From Tabrizicola caldifontis (GTDB lineage: Bacteria > Pseudomonadota > Alphaproteobacteria > Rhodobacterales > Rhodobacteraceae), in assembly GCF_004762095.1 (NCBI RefSeq), contig NZ_SIJH01000006.1, positions 1 through 64,000 on the forward strand: a stretch of 64,000 bases of DNA. The letters run 5' to 3'. A model generated the notes under the pieces. That model worked only from the letters and a program-made list of their open reading frames with translations. It did not search any database and was not told the DNA's origin. The position numbers and the translations under genes were made by a program. Position 1 is the stretch's first letter. The number at the start of each line of letters is the position of its first letter. Of the stretch, positions 3,388 to 13,228 are shown one piece after another.

Positions 3388-3435
3388 TTGGCTCCGGCGG
3401 TAGGGATCGAACCTACGACCAATTGATTAACAGTC
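3388..3435. repeat. attL: 48-bp direct repeat, copy of tRNA-Asn 3' half
   Basis: This 48-bp segment is identical to 13153-13200. It corresponds to the tRNA-Asn (GTT) 3' half from the anticodon region through CCA, the usual crossover region for tRNA-targeting tyrosine integrases. Sequence diverges right after 3435, so it is only a tRNA remnant and not a functional gene. Confidence 0.9.
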
Positions 3436-3539
3436 GAGATAAGAGGGCTATCAGGGCCTAACAATGCATAACGGTCAACTCGACAAAAAGGCAAGAAATG
3501 CTTGCGGTTACGCGGCAAATCTCTAACACTGCGCAACAT

Positions 3540-3592
3540 CGGGTAACGAGCCAAATCGGCGAAAATGTTACCCCGAAACCGCTCGGGGTAAC
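3540..3592. repeat. Left integrase arm-type sites (GTTACCCC repeats)
   Basis: GTTACCCC occurs at 3567-3574 and, inverted, at 3585-3592 (together GTTACCCCG-N8-CGGGGTAAC). A near copy, CGGGTAAC, lies at 3540-3547. The same 8-mer occurs twice near the right end (13069 and 13081). Matching short repeats inside both ends of a tyrosine-integrase element fit arm-type binding sites for the N-terminal domain of Int. The sites also lie just upstream of int, so they may autoregulate it. Confidence 0.6.
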
Positions 3593-3624: not shown

Positions 3625-4863
3625 ATGGCGAAAGCACTCACCGCTACGGCAATTGAGGCGGCCAAGCCGGGCGCGAACCGGCGCGAGATCAGCGACGGCG
3701 GGCAGGATGGACTCTTCCTGATCGTGCAACCTTCAGGCGCGAAGTCGTGGGCTCTTCGCTATAGGGCCGAGGGGAAGCCCGTGAAGCTCACGCTCGGCCT
3801 ATGGCCCGCAATGTCGCTCGCCAAGGCGAGGGGCTCGGCGGCCGCGGCGCTCGAGGCCGTGAAGGCTGGCGACGATCCGGCGGAGAAGAAGAGGGCCGCC
3901 AAGGCCGCGAAACTCGACACCGATCTCTCTGCACGTGACAAAGTGAAGACGCTGATTGGGCAATACGACAAGCTCCGGCTCAAGCACCTTAAGAGCCGTG
4001 CGACGGTGCGCCGGGAACTCGATCGGTTCGTCGTGGCTGCATGGGGCGAGCGAGATATCCATTCGATCGCGAAGCGCGACGTGATCGACCTTCTCGACGG
4101 GATCGCCGAAAGCGGACGGGCTGTCAGCGCGAACCGCGTGCGCGCTTACCTGAACACGTTCCTCAACTGGTGCGTCGAGCGCGATATCCTCGCAATGAGC
4201 CCAGCGACCGGGGTGAAGCGCGTCGCCAAAGAGACGAGCCGCGAGCGCGTGCTCTCCGACGACGAAATCCTTTGGCTTTGGCAAGCGTGCGACGATCTCG
4301 ATCTTTGGGGGCCGTTCACGAGGACTCTGTTGCTCACCGGGCAGAGGCTTGGCGAGGTGGCGGGAATGCGCGAGGCCGAGATTGCCGGGGCAACGTGGCA
4401 CCTCGACGCCAAGCGCACCAAGAACGGCCGGGCGCACGACGTGCCGCTCTCCGAAGCCGTGCTCGAGGTGCTGGCGGGCACGACGAAGATCAAGGGCGCG
4501 GGCTATCTCTTCACGACAACGGGCGCCTCGGCACTTTCCAACTTCCACCGGGGGCGCGAGGCCGTCGCCTCGAAGATGGCCGAGATCGCCGAGAAGGAAC
4601 GCGGCGAGCCCGTGGCGATCCCGCATTGGACCTTCCACGACCTTCGCCGCACGGCCGCAACAGGCATGGCCCGGCTCGGCATTCCCGTTCGCGTCACCGA
4701 GGCCGTGCTCAATCACGTGTCGGGAACGGGGGGCGGGATCGTCGCGGTTTATCAGCGCCACGACTACGCCGACGAGAAGCGAGCCGCGCTCGACTCATGG
4801 GCGCGGTTTGTCGTCTCGATCGTCGAAGGGAAGGCTGACAACGTGGTTCCGATTCGGGCCTAA
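3625..4863 (+). CDS. int: Tyrosine recombinase/integrase (P4 type)
   Basis: This 412-residue enzyme catalyses site-specific insertion into and excision from tRNA-Asn. Residues 1-90 form the arm-binding domain (DUF4102 type, start MAKALTATAIEAAKPGANRR). About 105-195 is the SAM-like core-binding domain. About 205-390 is the catalytic domain with R241 (TGQRLGE), H338-x-x-R341 (HDLRR), H364 (LNHVSG) and nucleophile Y376 (VYQRHDY). All catalytic residues are present, so it should be active. The start at ATG 3625 follows AAGGG. It sits beside attL, while the intact tRNA is at the far end of the element. Leucine codons favour CTC. Confidence 0.95.
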   Translation: MAKALTATAIEAAKPGANRREISDGGQDGLFLIVQPSGAKSWALRYRAEGKPVKLTLGLWPAMSLAKARGSAAAALEAVKAGDDPAEKKRAAKAAKLDTDLSARDKVKTLIGQYDKLRLKHLKSRATVRRELDRFVVAAWGERDIHSIAKRDVIDLLDGIAESGRAVSANRVRAYLNTFLNWCVERDILAMSPATGVKRVAKETSRERVLSDDEILWLWQACDDLDLWGPFTRTLLLTGQRLGEVAGMREAEIAGATWHLDAKRTKNGRAHDVPLSEAVLEVLAGTTKIKGAGYLFTTTGASALSNFHRGREAVASKMAEIAEKERGEPVAIPHWTFHDLRRTAATGMARLGIPVRVTEAVLNHVSGTGGGIVAVYQRHDYADEKRAALDSWARFVVSIVEGKADNVVPIRA

Positions 4864-4920
4864 GTGCTCGATCGGCGCGGAATCGTTTTTCGTGCATGTT
4901 GCTGTGAAGCACCGATCCTT

Positions 4921-4948
4921 GTGACGAGGTGTGACGAGAAGTGACGAG
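4921..4948. repeat. Three 10-bp-phased GTGACGAG direct repeats between int and alpA
   Basis: GTGACGAG occurs at 4921-4928, 4931-4938 and 4941-4948, each exactly one helical turn apart. They lie in the 206-bp gap before the AlpA-like gene. Phased direct repeats of this kind bind a multimerising regulator or serve as iterons. AlpA, Int or the replication protein are candidate ligands. I saw no further exact copy in the neighbouring gap sequence. Confidence 0.65.
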
Positions 4949-5069
4949 AGCGCACGTTCGGAAATGGACGTGTGAGCGCCGGGTTTCAAAGGCTATCACG
5001 AGGCATCTGAACTCTGCATGATCCTTCTCACGCCGGGCAACCCGGCCAAGAGCAAGAGGATCAACCAGA

Positions 5070-5261
5070 ATGACCCGACCGGAATACATGCCCGCCGCCC
5101 GCGCTCGCACCGAGATTCTCGGAGTGTCCGAAATGACGATGTGGCGTTGGCGGCAAGACCCGTCGCTCGGCTTTCCGCCCGGCGTGAAGATCAGGGGGCG
5201 CCTCTACTATGCCCCGAGCGAGCTTCGCGACTGGATGGAGCGCAACCGCGTCGCCGCCTAA
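5070..5261 (+). CDS. alpA: AlpA-family helix-turn-helix regulator/excisionase
   Basis: This 63-residue protein has a MerR/excisionase-like winged helix: ARTEILGVSEMTMWRWRQD is the helix-turn-helix and GVKIRGRLYYAPSELRDWME the wing and last helix. AlpA proteins activate int or act as excisionase in P4-like elements and phage-inducible islands. AGAGGA lies nine bases before ATG 5070. It sits between int and the replication gene, the standard place, and the phased repeats upstream are its likely operator. The fold call is firm; whether it drives excision or transcription is inferred. Confidence 0.85.
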   Translation: MTRPEYMPAARARTEILGVSEMTMWRWRQDPSLGFPPGVKIRGRLYYAPSELRDWMERNRVAA

Positions 5262-5386: not shown

Positions 5387-7387
5387 ATGAATAACAATGC
5401 TGTGTCGTCGCTTCCTGCGGCGAACCGAACCCCGCGCGAAAAGGCGCTCGCCTACGCCGCCGCCGGTTTTCCCGTGCACCCCGTGCGCGGGAAGATTCCG
5501 CTCACGAAGTGGAAGGACGCCGCCTCGACCGACCCGGTGACGATCAACGCATGGTATGACCGCTGGCCCGAGGCGGGCGTCGCGCTCGTCACTGGCGAGC
5601 GTTCCGGGCTCTTCGTGGTCGATCTCGATATCGACAAAGCGACGGGCGAGGCGACCGGCGAAGCGGCGGCCGATCGGCTCGGGCTCACCGAATGCTTCGA
5701 GGGCGCACCGATGGCGCGCACCGGCTCGGGCGGGCGTCATGTCTTCTTCCGCGCAGAAGAGGGCCTCGACAACTCGGCGGGCAAGCTCGGCGAGGGGATC
5801 GACACCCGCGGCACCGGCGGCTTCGTCGTCGCGGCGGGCTCGCCGGGCTATGAGTGGCTCGGGCCGTCGATCCTCGACCTCGACCCGCCGCCGGTGCCCG
5901 CCAAGCTCCGCGCGGCGATCCGGGCCGGAAAGAGCCCGGCGGAAGCGGCACCGCCCGCGGCCGATCAGAACGTCGTCGAGCTTCCCTTTGCCGTCATGGC
6001 CCGCCAACTTGCGGCCCTGCGCACCTCCGAGCCCGGCGGCAACGCATGGGCCGAGCAAGCCATAGCCGCCGAGGTCGGGCGCGTTGCCGTCGCCGCCGCG
6101 GGCGCCAGAAATCATACCCTCAACCGAGCCGCCTTCGCGCTCGGGCAGATCGTGGCAGGCGGGGGCCTCGAGCGCGATCGCGTCGTCGAAGCACTCTCTC
6201 GCGCCGCCCGGGCGATCGGCCTTGACGAGCACGAGATCGGGCAGACGATCGCCTCGGGCCTCGCAGCCGGTGCCGCCGAGCCTCGTGCCGCACCCGAGAG
6301 GCCGCAAGAGCGAGTCCAGGCATTGCCTCAAGGGCCTCTTTTTACGCCCGCCTCGGCTTTGGCTGGTAAGCCGATCGCACCGCGCTCTTGGCTCGTGCGC
6401 GACCTCGTGCCCGACGGAACCGTGACCCTTCTCGGCGGGGACGGTGGCACCGGCAAGTCGCTCTTGGCGCTGCAACTCGCGGTGGGCACTGCGACGGGAA
6501 GGGCATGGCTACACCGACCGATCGAGAAGCCGGGGCGCGCGCTCTTCCTGACTGCCGAAGACGACCTCGACGAAGTGCACCGCCGCCTCGCCGATATATG
6601 CACCGCCGAGGGCCTCGGGCTATCCGATCTCGGCGGCCTGCTGATCCGGTCTCTCGCGGGCGAAGACGCCTTGCTTGCCGTCTTGGATCGCGGAACGGGG
6701 GCACTCGCCCGCACGCCGCTCTATGACGCCCTCGCTCACGCGATCGGCGAGATCAGGCCGACGGCCGTCTTCCTCGACACGCTGGCCGACCTGCATTCAG
6801 GCGAAGAGAATAACCGAGCCCATGCTCGCCAATTCATCGGGCTCTTGCGTGCTCTGGCGATCCGACACGAGTGCGCCGTCGTGCTTCTCGCTCACCCCTC
6901 TCTGTCTGGCATGGCGAGCGGCTCGGGGCTCTCGGGATCGACGGCATGGAATGGATCGGTGCGCTCGCGGCTCTACCTCGATCGCGTAAAGGAAGAGGGC
7001 TATGAGCCCGATCCCGACGCTCGCAAGCTCACCACGAAGAAGGCGAACTACGGGCCGACCGGCGATGAGATCGCGATCCGCTGGCAAGCCGGGGTCTTCG
7101 TTGCGGAAACGGCGCCGACGGGCCTTGATCGCATGGCGGCGAGCGCCAAAGCCGAGCGCGTCTTCCTCTCGCTTCTCCGCCAGTTCACGGCCGAGGGCCG
7201 TTCGGTGAACCACGCGGGCGGGCGCTACTACGCGCCGAAGGTGTTCGCCGAGCACCCGCAATCCGAGGGCGTGACAAAGCGGGCGTTCGGTGCTGCAATG
7301 AGCACGCTTCTCGCCGGTGGGAAGATCAGCGTCGAGAAATACGGGCCGCCCTCGAAGGGTGCGACCCGCATTGCCGAGGTGAAATGA
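5387..7387 (+). CDS. Primase-polymerase/helicase replication protein of the satellite
   Basis: This 666-residue protein should start and drive replication of the excised element. Residues about 15-180 form a bifunctional primase/polymerase N-terminal domain, with FPVHPVRGKIPLTKWK, the acidic VVDLDID and SGGRHVFF. A linker of about 200 residues follows. Residues about 335-545 form a RepA-like AAA ATPase with Walker A GGDGGTGKS (K357), Walker B-like AVFLDTLADL, and AVVLLAHPS. The C-terminus (about 585-666) looks like a winged-helix DNA-binding part. Ribosome site is weak. In phage-inducible islands the pri-rep gene lies near its own origin; repeats directly downstream fit that. Confidence 0.9.
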   Translation: MNNNAVSSLPAANRTPREKALAYAAAGFPVHPVRGKIPLTKWKDAASTDPVTINAWYDRWPEAGVALVTGERSGLFVVDLDIDKATGEATGEAAADRLGLTECFEGAPMARTGSGGRHVFFRAEEGLDNSAGKLGEGIDTRGTGGFVVAAGSPGYEWLGPSILDLDPPPVPAKLRAAIRAGKSPAEAAPPAADQNVVELPFAVMARQLAALRTSEPGGNAWAEQAIAAEVGRVAVAAAGARNHTLNRAAFALGQIVAGGGLERDRVVEALSRAARAIGLDEHEIGQTIASGLAAGAAEPRAAPERPQERVQALPQGPLFTPASALAGKPIAPRSWLVRDLVPDGTVTLLGGDGGTGKSLLALQLAVGTATGRAWLHRPIEKPGRALFLTAEDDLDEVHRRLADICTAEGLGLSDLGGLLIRSLAGEDALLAVLDRGTGALARTPLYDALAHAIGEIRPTAVFLDTLADLHSGEENNRAHARQFIGLLRALAIRHECAVVLLAHPSLSGMASGSGLSGSTAWNGSVRSRLYLDRVKEEGYEPDPDARKLTTKKANYGPTGDEIAIRWQAGVFVAETAPTGLDRMAASAKAERVFLSLLRQFTAEGRSVNHAGGRYYAPKVFAEHPQSEGVTKRAFGAAMSTLLAGGKISVEKYGPPSKGATRIAEVK

Positions 7388-7407
7388 TGCTCGCGCCTTC
7401 CTACCAT

Positions 7408-7571
7408 ACCCCCTTCATCCCCCCTGCCGAAGTTGGTGCCGAAGTGGGTGCTGAACCCCCTTCATCCCCCCTTCATCCCCCCTGTTTTCGCACACCCCTT
7501 ATACCCCAAGGGTTTGGCACCCCGCTCGGGCGGGTTGCACCCTACCGCGAGGGCCACGGTGAGGCACCGTG
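7408..7571. repeat. Iteron-like repeats and dyads after the replication gene, candidate origin
   Basis: CTTCATCCCCCCT occurs at 7413-7425, 7460-7472 and 7471-7483. GGTGCCGAAGT-like units lie between them. GGGTT/GCACCC dyads follow around 7510-7542, and CACGGTG-N3-CACCGTG lies at 7555-7571. The tract sits in the gap between the replication gene and the next small gene. Repeats plus dyads beside pri-rep suggest the replication origin. A proline-rich frame (7384-7632) runs through it and overlaps the rep stop; I judge that frame non-coding. Confidence 0.5.
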
Positions 7572-7649
7572 TGGTGACATTCTTACGTCTCGACGGCCGA
7601 TTGCCTCGGCGATCTCATGGGTGGCGGGATGAACGAAAAGGAACCCGAC

Positions 7650-7790
7650 ATGACACGCACCGACAAGCTGCACGCCGCCGATCGCCTTCGCGAGATCGCC
7701 GCCGACTTCGAGAAACAAGCGGCCGAACTCGAGGCCGAGGCGCTCGAGGGGTGCGAGGTAGAGGTCGAGCGAACGCACCTCGACGACTGA
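7650..7790 (+). CDS. Small acidic coiled-coil protein of the satellite
   Basis: This 46-residue protein starts at ATG 7650, six bases after AAGGAA; an in-frame ATG at 7629 would add seven residues. The sequence is a single predicted amphipathic helix (residues 5-32) rich in Ala/Glu/Arg, with an acidic tail ending in DD. No family is recognised. It lies between the candidate origin and the 83-residue gene on the same strand and shares the CTC/GAG-rich codon use of the element. Small proteins at this place in satellites often modulate replication or the helper, which is inference. Confidence 0.55.
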   Translation: MTRTDKLHAADRLREIAADFEKQAAELEAEALEGCEVEVERTHLDD

Positions 7791-7862
7791 GAGAACGCGA
7801 GGGGCTCGGCGAGCCGGGCCTCTCGACGCAAAGAGAACAAGAGCTTCGGAAAGGAGCCCCAT

Positions 7863-8114
7863 ATGCGAACGACCTCACTCTTCACCGGGCACTCGGTGCC
7901 ACGCCTAGCGAGCTTCGGCGGATCGCCCGAGCGCAACCTTTGGCTCGCAGTCGTCGCGCTTGCGATCCAGAACGACGAGCCCGATCAACTCGTGCGATGG
8001 CTGCGCTCGGCTGATGGACACGAGGTATGCGCCCTTGCGGGCCTCTCGCCCGAGTGGGTCGAGCACTGCTTCGGGCAGGGCGAAGGCTTCGTGCGACACG
8101 GGCTCGCCGCCTGA
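7863..8114 (+). CDS. Hypothetical 83-residue satellite protein
   Basis: The gene has a clear ribosome site, AAAGGAG, about six bases before ATG 7863. The protein has a helical central part (NLWLAVVALAIQNDEPDQLV) and a C-terminal WLRSADGHEVCALAGLSPEW, which suggests a small DNA- or protein-binding fold. No family is recognised. It is the last gene before the palindrome and the small terminase gene, so it may belong to the early or regulatory part of the element. Confidence 0.65.
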   Translation: MRTTSLFTGHSVPRLASFGGSPERNLWLAVVALAIQNDEPDQLVRWLRSADGHEVCALAGLSPEWVEHCFGQGEGFVRHGLAA

Positions 8115-8186
8115 GCGAGAAAATCTCTCGGGGCTAAAGGGGGCCGACCGCGTGGGATAGTCGAATTTCTCCGTGGTCGAAATGTA

Positions 8187-8198
8187 ATGTTGTAACAT
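8187..8198. promoter_or_regulatory. Palindrome ATGTT-GT-AACAT before the packaging genes
   Basis: A perfect ATGTT/AACAT inverted repeat with a two-base centre lies 14 bases before the terS start, in the most A+T-rich part of the gap. It is a good candidate operator or promoter overlap for the packaging/capsid block. The ribosome site GAGGGA follows at 8200-8205. Confidence 0.4.
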
Positions 8199-8211
8199 AG
8201 AGGGACCCGCC

Positions 8212-8619
8212 ATGCCGGGACGGCCGCGAAAACCGACGCATCTGCACAAGCTCGAGGGCACGCGCACCCGCACTAACCGGCGCCACGAACCCGAACCTAC
8301 CGGGCCGCTCGGCGATCCGCCGTCGTGCCTTCCTGCCGCCGCGGCTGCCGCTTGGCGCGAGATCGCCGAGGCCCTCTCGCCCGGGGTGGCGGGGAACTCC
8401 GATCGGATCGCCGTCGAGATCGTGGCGCGGCTCTTGGCCCGCCTGCGCTCGGCCGACGGCATCACGGCCGCCGAGCTATCGTGCCTTCACCGGGGGCTCG
8501 CCTCGCTCGGCATGACGCCGACGGCGCGCTCAAAGGTGGCGCCGCCGGTGCGCGAGCCGAAGCCCGCGGTGCCCGATCCTTGGGATGCTCTCACCCGGCA
8601 TGGATTGGGAAGGGCTTAA
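8212..8619 (+). CDS. terS: Phage terminase small subunit (P27 type)
   Basis: This 135-residue protein begins MPGRPRKPTHLHKLEGT, the hallmark N-terminus of P27-family small terminases. The family motif with PPSCLP and a Trp-Arg-Glu helix (AAWREIAEAL) follows. TerS recognises the pac/cos site and directs the large subunit to load DNA into the head. No large subunit is encoded in the element, so this TerS would have to redirect a helper phage motor, the known strategy of phage-inducible islands. GAGGGA precedes the ATG. The stop overlaps the stop of the opposite-strand MltR-like gene by four bases. Confidence 0.85.
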   Translation: MPGRPRKPTHLHKLEGTRTRTNRRHEPEPTGPLGDPPSCLPAAAAAAWREIAEALSPGVAGNSDRIAVEIVARLLARLRSADGITAAELSCLHRGLASLGMTPTARSKVAPPVREPKPAVPDPWDALTRHGLGRA

Positions 8620-9131
8620 GTGGGCCACTCTCGGCGCTCTAAGCGCGCTCTCTTTACGTAGGCAGCGCGATTGATGAGGCTCAGAATCAACGCGATCGCC
8701 GCCGACGAAAAGTGATCGAATGGTCGGACTCTCTTGTCATGCGGCTTGATCGAATGGTGAAGATTAGCACTGAGATCGGCGATCCTTTGGCTCGCAAAGT
8801 CGGCCTTGTGATCATGTGCGAGATCGTTCCTGATCTTCCTCAAGGTCTCGCAATCGTCGCGCTCTTTGTCAGAGATCAGGCCGAGGCAATGCGCCATCAC
8901 AATGCGCGAAGAGAACGTGCCGATCGGAGCGTTAAAGCCTTCAAGCAGTTTGTCGCGGGCAGAGTCCGCGATCAAGAAAGCGTCGATGATCTCCCGAAGC
9001 TGGTCGTCGAGAAAGGCACATGACACCAAGACCGCGCCGCGCGGGCTTTCTTGATTGTGCGTCTCGAGCAAGGGCAGGAAGTCTTTCAGGTGCGGGTGGG
9101 TTTTCAAAAACTCGGCGTGACGATCTTCCAT
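8616..9131 (-). CDS. MltR-like protein with HEPN-type Rx4H motif, probable cargo gene
   Basis: This is the only opposite-strand gene in the satellite (171 residues from ATG 9131, after AAGGGAT). Residues 28-110 resemble the MltR/YggD family: RGAVLVSCAFLDDQL, FNAPIGTFSSRIVMAHCLGL and RKIRNDLAHDH. The segment R101-N-D-L-A-H106 also fits the R-x4-6-H motif of HEPN ribonucleases, which often serve as toxins or abortive-infection effectors. Opposite orientation between terS and the capsid genes marks a self-contained cargo. MltR itself is described as a mannitol operon repressor; a defence role here is inference. The first 21 residues of the longer frame (to 9194) were not used. Confidence 0.65.
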   Translation of the reverse strand: MEDRHAEFLKTHPHLKDFLPLLETHNQESPRGAVLVSCAFLDDQLREIIDAFLIADSARDKLLEGFNAPIGTFSSRIVMAHCLGLISDKERDDCETLRKIRNDLAHDHKADFASQRIADLSANLHHSIKPHDKRVRPFDHFSSAAIALILSLINRAAYVKRARLERREWPT

Positions 9132-9260
9132 CGGTGCAAATCCCTTGATGCGAATGGGCTTGTGAGCACGGGGCGAGACCGTGGCCGCGAGCACGCGAAT
9201 ACTTCATGCTCATTTCAACACGAAAGAGAACCCGAGACGCAATCGGGCAAGGAGTCGGAC

Positions 9261-9728
9261 ATGCTGACAATTCGCAAACTTAAAGACCTGATCGCCGAAC
9301 CGTTCGGGCTCTCGGCCGATCCCGCCTATCGCGCCGGGCTCGACATTGGGTTTGATACCGGCGTGCTCGATGGCTCGGGCAAGCGCCAGCGATACAACCT
9401 CTCGGGCCGCGTTCTCGCCGAGCACGTGCTCGTCATGGCGGGGGTAGGTGCAGGGATCGCCACCGACGCCATGAGCTTCCTGATCTCGCTCCGCGCCTCT
9501 GGCGTGGTGCCGATGCTGGCGAACCTGATCGAGCTTGCCGAGGCAGGCGATCGCTCGCACCTCGATGAAGCGCTCTTCACGATCGACGGCGAAGGCCGGG
9601 CTCTCGTTGCCTTCGTTGCTCGCGCCGATCGCTCGAACGTCGAGATCGAGTCCAAGACCTTCGGCGGCAGCCCGCGCGGCCGTGCATTCGTGTTCGACGG
9701 CTTCACGCTCGCCGAGGCTCTCGCCTGA
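9261..9728 (+). CDS. Hypothetical satellite protein upstream of the capsid gene
   Basis: This 155-residue protein starts at ATG 9261, six bases after AAGGAG, which decides the start over a longer frame from 9051. The N-terminus MLTIRKLKDLIAEPFGLSAD looks helical. The middle is rich in small hydrophobics (VMAGVGAGIATDAMSFLISL) and the C-terminal third looks beta-rich. No family is recognised. Position just before the major capsid gene suggests a scaffold, decoration or size-setting role, but there is no motif to support this. Confidence 0.65.
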   Translation: MLTIRKLKDLIAEPFGLSADPAYRAGLDIGFDTGVLDGSGKRQRYNLSGRVLAEHVLVMAGVGAGIATDAMSFLISLRASGVVPMLANLIELAEAGDRSHLDEALFTIDGEGRALVAFVARADRSNVEIESKTFGGSPRGRAFVFDGFTLAEALA

Positions 9729-9908
9729 ACTCTTCCCCGGCCGTGTCGCGCGGCCTGTCGTGCTCACCGCTGATGGCTTCGGGGCAATGGCACGACAAAC
9801 CCGAATACCTCGGAATGTGCCTCTGAGGGAGGGACGCGACGACCTAACCCGCGCCTCGGCGCTCAACCAGAAGCCCGCCAAAAAGGGCCACAGAAGGAAC
9901 GAAGACCC

Positions 9909-13068: not shown

Positions 13069-13088
13069 GTTACCCCAAACGTTACCCC
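13069..13088. repeat. Right integrase arm-type sites (GTTACCCC repeats)
   Basis: Two direct copies of GTTACCCC at 13069-13076 and 13081-13088, 12 bases apart, match the copies inside the left end of the element. The second is extended to GTTACCCCGGGG. They lie 65-85 bases from attR. Confidence 0.6.
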
Positions 13089-13152: not shown

Positions 13153-13200
13153 TTGGCTCCGGCGGTAGGGATCGAACCTACGACCAATTGATTAACAGTC
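13153..13200. repeat. attR: 48-bp direct repeat inside tRNA-Asn
   Basis: This is identical to 3388-3435. Here the repeat is continuous with the 5' half of the tRNA, so insertion left one complete tRNA-Asn at the right junction and a 3' remnant at the left. Confidence 0.9.
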
Positions 13201-13228
13201 AACTGCTCTACCGCTGAGCTACGCCGGA
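13154..13228 (-). tRNA. tRNA-Asn (anticodon GTT)
   Basis: The minus strand folds into a complete cloverleaf. The acceptor stem is TCCGGCG/CGCCGGA, followed by an encoded GCCA end. The anticodon arm is GTTGA-CTGTTAA-TCAAT with anticodon GTT, and the T arm is GTAGG-TTCGATC-CCTAC. It is the integration target of the satellite. The 3' part is supplied by attR, so the gene stays functional, but its original terminator now lies 9.8 kb away at attL. Confidence 0.95.

Follow-up and report, generated by a model that had tools for sequence, protein, structure and literature searches.

What protein, if any, would line up along three perfect copies of the word GTGACGAG that stand between the integrase gene and alpA of a phage satellite? 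The window, by which we mean the whole stretch of 64,000 nucleotides of Tabrizicola caldifontis DNA that was analyzed, carries these copies at 4921-4928, 4931-4938 and 4941-4948, identical in 8/8 bases and separated by unequal spacer dinucleotides, GT and AA. The claim of three perfect repeats phased at exactly 10 bp between int and alpA was confirmed by the starts at 4921, 4931 and 4941, which have the one-turn direct-repeat spacing of an excisionase (RDF) operator array. When the 64-kb window was searched for perfect triples of at least 7 bp at lags of 8 to 13, the GTGACGAG array was the only one found. For each of three Markov models (orders 1, 2 and 5), 400 windows of 64 kb were simulated and none contained an 8-bp triple at lag 10, the analytic expectation for such a triple in the window is 1.3e-4, and shuffling of the 206-bp int-alpA gap produced a 6-bp triple at lag 10 in 1/50,000 cases. 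Single copies of GTGACGAG with at most one mismatch were not enriched in the window (72 versus 64.6 expected), and it is therefore the arrangement rather than the word count which is unusual. The rest of the 3.48-Mb genome held one two-copy match to the array, with 2 mismatches. The array is real and non-random. A mirror-symmetric double array around 4963 was rejected, as a complementarity test gave no support.

The array belongs to an element of 9,765 bp which is bounded by 48-bp direct repeats and inserted in tRNA-Asn (Table 1). Besides int, alpA and a primase-polymerase/AAA gene, the element has genes for the small subunit of a terminase, a capsid of the HK97 type, a portal and a prohead protease. 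By this gene content, it is a capsid-forming PICI-like satellite. Most of the related loci L151-L185 carry a variable gene of ~140-240 aa between int and alpA, starting near the int end, which recalls the PICMI gene iolg (PMC10803314); the window element and its closest relative are without this extra gene. A scan for the sigma-70 promoter consensus found none in the int-alpA gap, and a -35/-10 pair picked by eye (4985/5008) was dropped when the scan gave it no support.

Table 1. Features of the satellite element and its boundaries, in window coordinates.
Feature	Position	Strand	Remark
attL core	3388..3435		48 bp identical to 13153-13200
Phased 10-bp repeats, att left arm, set 1: GGCTATCAGG GCCTAACAAT GCATAACG	3446..3473	+	element's best match to relatives' motif
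Phased 10-bp repeats, att left arm, set 2: CTCTAACACT GCGCAACATC GGGTAACG	3521..3548	+	
Putative Int arm sites, GTTACCCC (3567-3574) and inverted GGGGTAAC (3585-3592)	3567..3592		
int, tyrosine integrase with arm-binding domain	3625..4863	+	
int-alpA intergenic control region, 206 bp	4864..5069		176/206 identical to L027
Three perfect GTGACGAG repeats, start-to-start 10 bp	4921..4948	+	minus strand reads CTCGTCAC
Second, weaker phased triple GGGTTTCAAA GGCTATCACG AGGCATCT	4981..5008	+	strong in L027
Predicted hairpin enclosing alpA ribosome-binding site	5019..5063	+	-23.5 kcal/mol, z -4.3
alpA, 63 aa, HTH_17	5070..5261	+	PHROG 'excisionase and transcriptional regulator'
rep, primase-polymerase fused to AAA_25 ATPase	5387..7387	+	ATPase half differs in L027
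CCCCTTCATCCCC repeats (7410, 7457, 7468)	7410..7480	+	just behind rep
Putative Int arm sites, right arm, two GTTACCCC 12 bp apart	13069..13088	+	
attR core	13153..13200		within tRNA-Asn (13154-13228)

Exact three-copy GTGACGAG arrays were found in IMG/VR in one record only, which is the same element. The closest relative (L003/L027/L150; int 97% and AlpA 95% identical) carries GTGAGGAG, GTGACAGG and GTGACGAG at an unchanged 10-bp phase, and in L027 the array is identical to the window in 25/28 bases, with GTGA intact in all three copies. Approximately 35 wider relatives, the int of most being 58-72% identical and most having an extra gene between int and alpA, were without the GTGACGAG array. 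Wider genome searches with AlpA returned relatives of at most 45% identity, and the array was absent in those inspected. Judged by the degenerate copy in one close relative and the absence from ~35 others, the GTGACGAG word is lineage-specific. Such a narrow distribution would also suit a neutral short tandem duplication devoid of function, an explanation which we consider improbable. Although 3/28 bases have changed in L027, none of its three GTGA cores is lost and the 10-bp phase is preserved, the array sits in a control region where relatives carry phased sites, and the spacers GT and AA differ from one another, unlike those expected of a fresh copy of a 10-bp unit.

L027 also bears on whether the repeats might be replication-origin iterons for the satellite primase/ATPase (Rep). 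This origin reading was first prompted by GTGACG words at 9-10 bp directly behind rep in the related satellites L130 and L118, and GTGACG words are common in phage contigs as well. Two stretches of L027 match the window at 94-95% identity, one running from the left end to ~6322, a position inside rep, and the other beginning at ~9849; between them the sequences are dissimilar save for 76 bp. The cassette replaced between the two elements (~6322-9849) leaves the primase-polymerase in place, exchanges the ATPase half and ends just before the capsid gene. Behind rep, the window element carries the repeats CCCCTTCATCCCC, likely its own replication iterons, while in L027 the repeats at this position are GGGAACGCG and in the more distant L130 they are TGTGACGG. 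Since the array is retained where both the ATPase half of Rep and the repeats following its gene have changed, the position behind rep is the most likely one for the iterons, to which the array does not belong. The primase-polymerase half was not swapped, so this argument is strong rather than complete. Iterons would be at the origin and would co-vary with their initiator, a pattern that the GTGACGAG array does not show with respect to the Rep ATPase half; the origin reading was dropped and is in our judgment decidedly improbable. The replication protein, which the earlier note had listed among the possible binders, is thus an unlikely one.

Several further observations concern repeats of this kind elsewhere. 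Repeats of the TGTGACGG type at 9-10 bp were present in L130 (5960-6061), L118, L095, L126, L134 and L137, and those of L130, situated in the interval from rep to the large terminase gene, resemble replication iterons. Phage contigs very commonly contain GTGACG triples at a 10-bp phase (viral contig loci L029-L147; at least 120 matches). Many of the triples among the matches listed fall inside replication-gene-like open frames, where they would encode R-H-K-A-S-Q-S-V-T-like stretches, and these in-frame triples are perhaps origins embedded in initiator genes.

A role as additional arm-type sites for Int was weighed in the same manner. The array adjoins int, and the att arm contains GTAACGAG, one base from GTGACGAG, within an inverted Int site. 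Nevertheless, the family consensus for Int arm sites is GTTACCCC (GTTCCCC in another group) at 11-12 bp, with which GTGACGAG agrees in 4/8 bases, and the array is ~1.5 kb away from the core. On the consensus, an identity as Int arm sites was rejected, and we regard it as the least probable of the explanations considered here. With respect to the sites themselves, those of the GTTACCCC type flank the att core in the window (3541-3592 and 13069-13088), and one group of relatives has GTTCCCC instead.

The att arms provided a second source of phased repeats. The left arms of 22 relatives were aligned with that of the window (23 arms), and base matching was determined per lag between the core and int. 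Lag 10 was the strongest in both segments between the core and the Int arm sites (z 7.7 for bases 0-50 and 9.2 for bases 50-110), with a further peak at lag 24 in bases 0-50 (z 6.4), all z values overstating independence since the arm sequences are related. In bases 110-170 the peak was at lag 11, corresponding to the pair of GTTACCCC Int arm sites. A motif trained on the att arms of the relatives alone, consisting of three copies at 10 bp with the core TAAC/TATC/AAAC, ranked the element's own att sites top (25.1 at 3446 and 20.4 at 3521). Two phased copies of the att motif also occur before alpA, mostly ~30 bp from the start codon, with 53% of 47 upstream regions at p<0.05 (combined p 2e-22, for sequences that are related and not independent). 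A motif-free test on 43 non-redundant relatives gave a signal at lag 10 alone (z 6.3) within -60..0 of alpA, and nothing comparable farther upstream than 60 bp. Taking together the lag-10 signals in the att arms and the motif matches and motif-free signal before alpA, the family-wide property at the level of sequence is the presence of sites at one-turn phase, both within the att arm and next to the gene for the putative excisionase. Phasing by 10 bp at these two places is the layout of excisionase (RDF) sites.

These data qualify what had been proposed for the locus. The earlier note looked to related satellites for conservation of the spacing, and 10-bp phasing before alpA is indeed family-wide, but mostly in another word and nearer alpA. 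Relatives with the same genes and no repeats, which it took as the finding that would speak against its idea, exist in part: the word is mostly absent, yet phased repeats of other sequence are present. One-turn phasing and a role in the int/alpA control region are well supported by the family phasing in att arms and before alpA and by published excisionases (PMC7498355, PMC11963761). That the array itself would set integration against excision is less secure, as it is ~1.5 kb from the att core in an element whose att arm has phased sites of its own.

AlpA was analyzed as the candidate binder. The protein matched Pfam HTH_17 (3.2e-7) and PHROG 66, and its predicted structure (pLDDT 87) had as best structural match the RdfS excisionase (8dgl; Z 6.7 over 57 residues, rmsd 3.4), a middling score given that a Z under 8 may reflect a common fold. 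Further matches to the model were another putative excisionase, MerR-type proteins and DNA-bound BldC, and the Xis proteins of Pukovnik and lambda were also listed. Foldseek alone with the AlpA model gave no E-value below 0.1, and the AlpA profile found no match among the sequences of solved structures. As modelled, AlpA is a winged-HTH protein of the HTH_17 family. Excisionases bind head-to-tail to direct repeats one turn apart, and a subset also regulates promoters through sites alike in sequence and arrangement (PMC7498355); RdfS binds at attP as well as at its own promoter (PMC11963761). AlpA of an E. coli PICI is a likely positive autoregulator (PMC11773190), whereas PICMI AlpA triggers excision with satellite gene expression unchanged (PMC10803314).

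We therefore put forward the array as a putative operator for autoregulation by a winged-HTH protein of the excisionase type, for which AlpA of the satellite is the most likely candidate, and to this reading we assign an even chance. The three copies would be head-to-tail sites, one helical turn apart, for AlpA protomers, which would occupy neighbouring positions along a single face of the DNA, with cooperative binding and a loose sequence preference. A short AlpA filament would form upstream of the alpA promoter, perhaps spreading into it, and would adjust the expression of alpA itself. On the separate phased sites of the att arm, AlpA would work with Int in excision. Here we infer both the binding of AlpA to the GTGACGAG array and the sign of the regulation. 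Geometry supports a binder of the excisionase type, and location together with linkage to int and alpA favours AlpA, the linkage being drawn from L027, where the array is kept with alpA while the Rep ATPase half differs; direct support for the array being kept in relatives comes from this one close relative only.

The sequence of the repeats is less informative. Scored with the att motif, the GTGACGAG array reached 8.3 on the minus strand, a value above that of any other triple within 160 bp of alpA (p 0.03), yet 21-24% of random perfect triples scored as high, and the word thus does not identify AlpA. The array has TGAC/TCAC, as opposed to the core TAAC/TATC at the att sites of the element, and gives its better match to the att motif on the minus strand. 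The L027 equivalent of the second triple at 4981-5008, GGGTCACAAT AGCTATCACG GGATATCG, scored 14.7 on the plus strand (shuffle P 0.001). In view of this good triple, AlpA could operate at that position, with GTGACGAG left to another protein.

That other protein might be a host factor or helper-phage activator which binds the array upstream of the promoter and switches on alpA, with AlpA confined to sites of the TAAC/TATC type. In agreement with this, the AlpA-type sites in relatives are much nearer alpA, GTGACGAG departs from the TAAC/TATC core seen at att in this element, and the copies are perfect over 8 bp, which is beyond the need of excisionases with loose specificity. The helper of an E. 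coli PICI induces alpA even without AlpA (PMC11773190). The operators of such a helper might show a second similar array, and neither the host genome nor, beyond the same element, IMG/VR contained one. Dimeric repressors, moreover, prefer inverted repeats, and direct repeats one turn apart are unusual for them. We consider such a regulator unlikely on balance, and clearly less probable than AlpA as the binder of the array.

Control of alpA may extend to translation. The last 45-60 bp before alpA were folded in ~45 related loci, using single sequences against shuffles since the MAFFT leader alignment was too poor for pair covariation. Across the family, leaders gave more stable folds than their shuffles (mean z -1.95, with 62% of leaders below -1.5; combined p 3e-21, computed without correction for relatedness), and the stem sequences differ between relatives. 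The hairpin enclosing the ribosome-binding site suggests translational control of the satellite switch gene, a putative second layer on alpA. A broader proposal, which we offer tentatively and hold to be rather unlikely as a whole, is a two-layer control of alpA throughout the satellite family, in which phased operators sharing the att-arm motif would couple alpA output to excision and the hairpin would silence alpA until the helper acts. In the window lineage, the operator would then have been relocated and perfected as the GTGACGAG array.

Many phage satellites have AlpA as their switch, and whether it is an excisionase, a transcription factor or both is an unsettled question. Phased sites of one motif at the att arm and before alpA, together with a perfect three-site array in one lineage, bring this question within direct experimental reach, the materials being one 63-aa protein in purified form and two short fragments of DNA.

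By comparison with described systems, the geometry and place of the array are of an already known kind, that of excisionase-type operators. The operators of phage 186 Apl, itself a small HTH excisionase that also regulates transcription, are likewise short direct repeats with a spacing of 10-11 bp, located at att and at the early promoters (PMC7498355). They consist, however, of seven six-bp sites between convergent promoters, as opposed to three perfect 8-bp copies between int and alpA, and in the present element the att motif differs from the promoter word GTGACGAG. Replication iterons share the short phased direct repeats, whereas the array lies before alpA, not behind rep, and shows no co-variation with the Rep ATPase half. 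The PICI and PICMI systems have the same int-alpA-primase order and AlpA as the switch of the satellite cycle; in the available parts of these reports no phased operator is described, and PICMI AlpA is without transcriptional effect (PMC11773190, PMC10803314). Lambda and Pukovnik Xis also bind as head-to-tail protomers with one site per turn (PMC7498355), at sites in the att arms, whereas the GTGACGAG array is ~1.5 kb off, though the element has phased sites in its att arm as well. RdfS of ICEMlSymR7A, the best match of the AlpA model, is a filament-forming winged-HTH excisionase with attP and its own promoter as targets (PMC11963761); the RdfS sites are without a consensus, while here the copies are identical and their binding by AlpA is putative.
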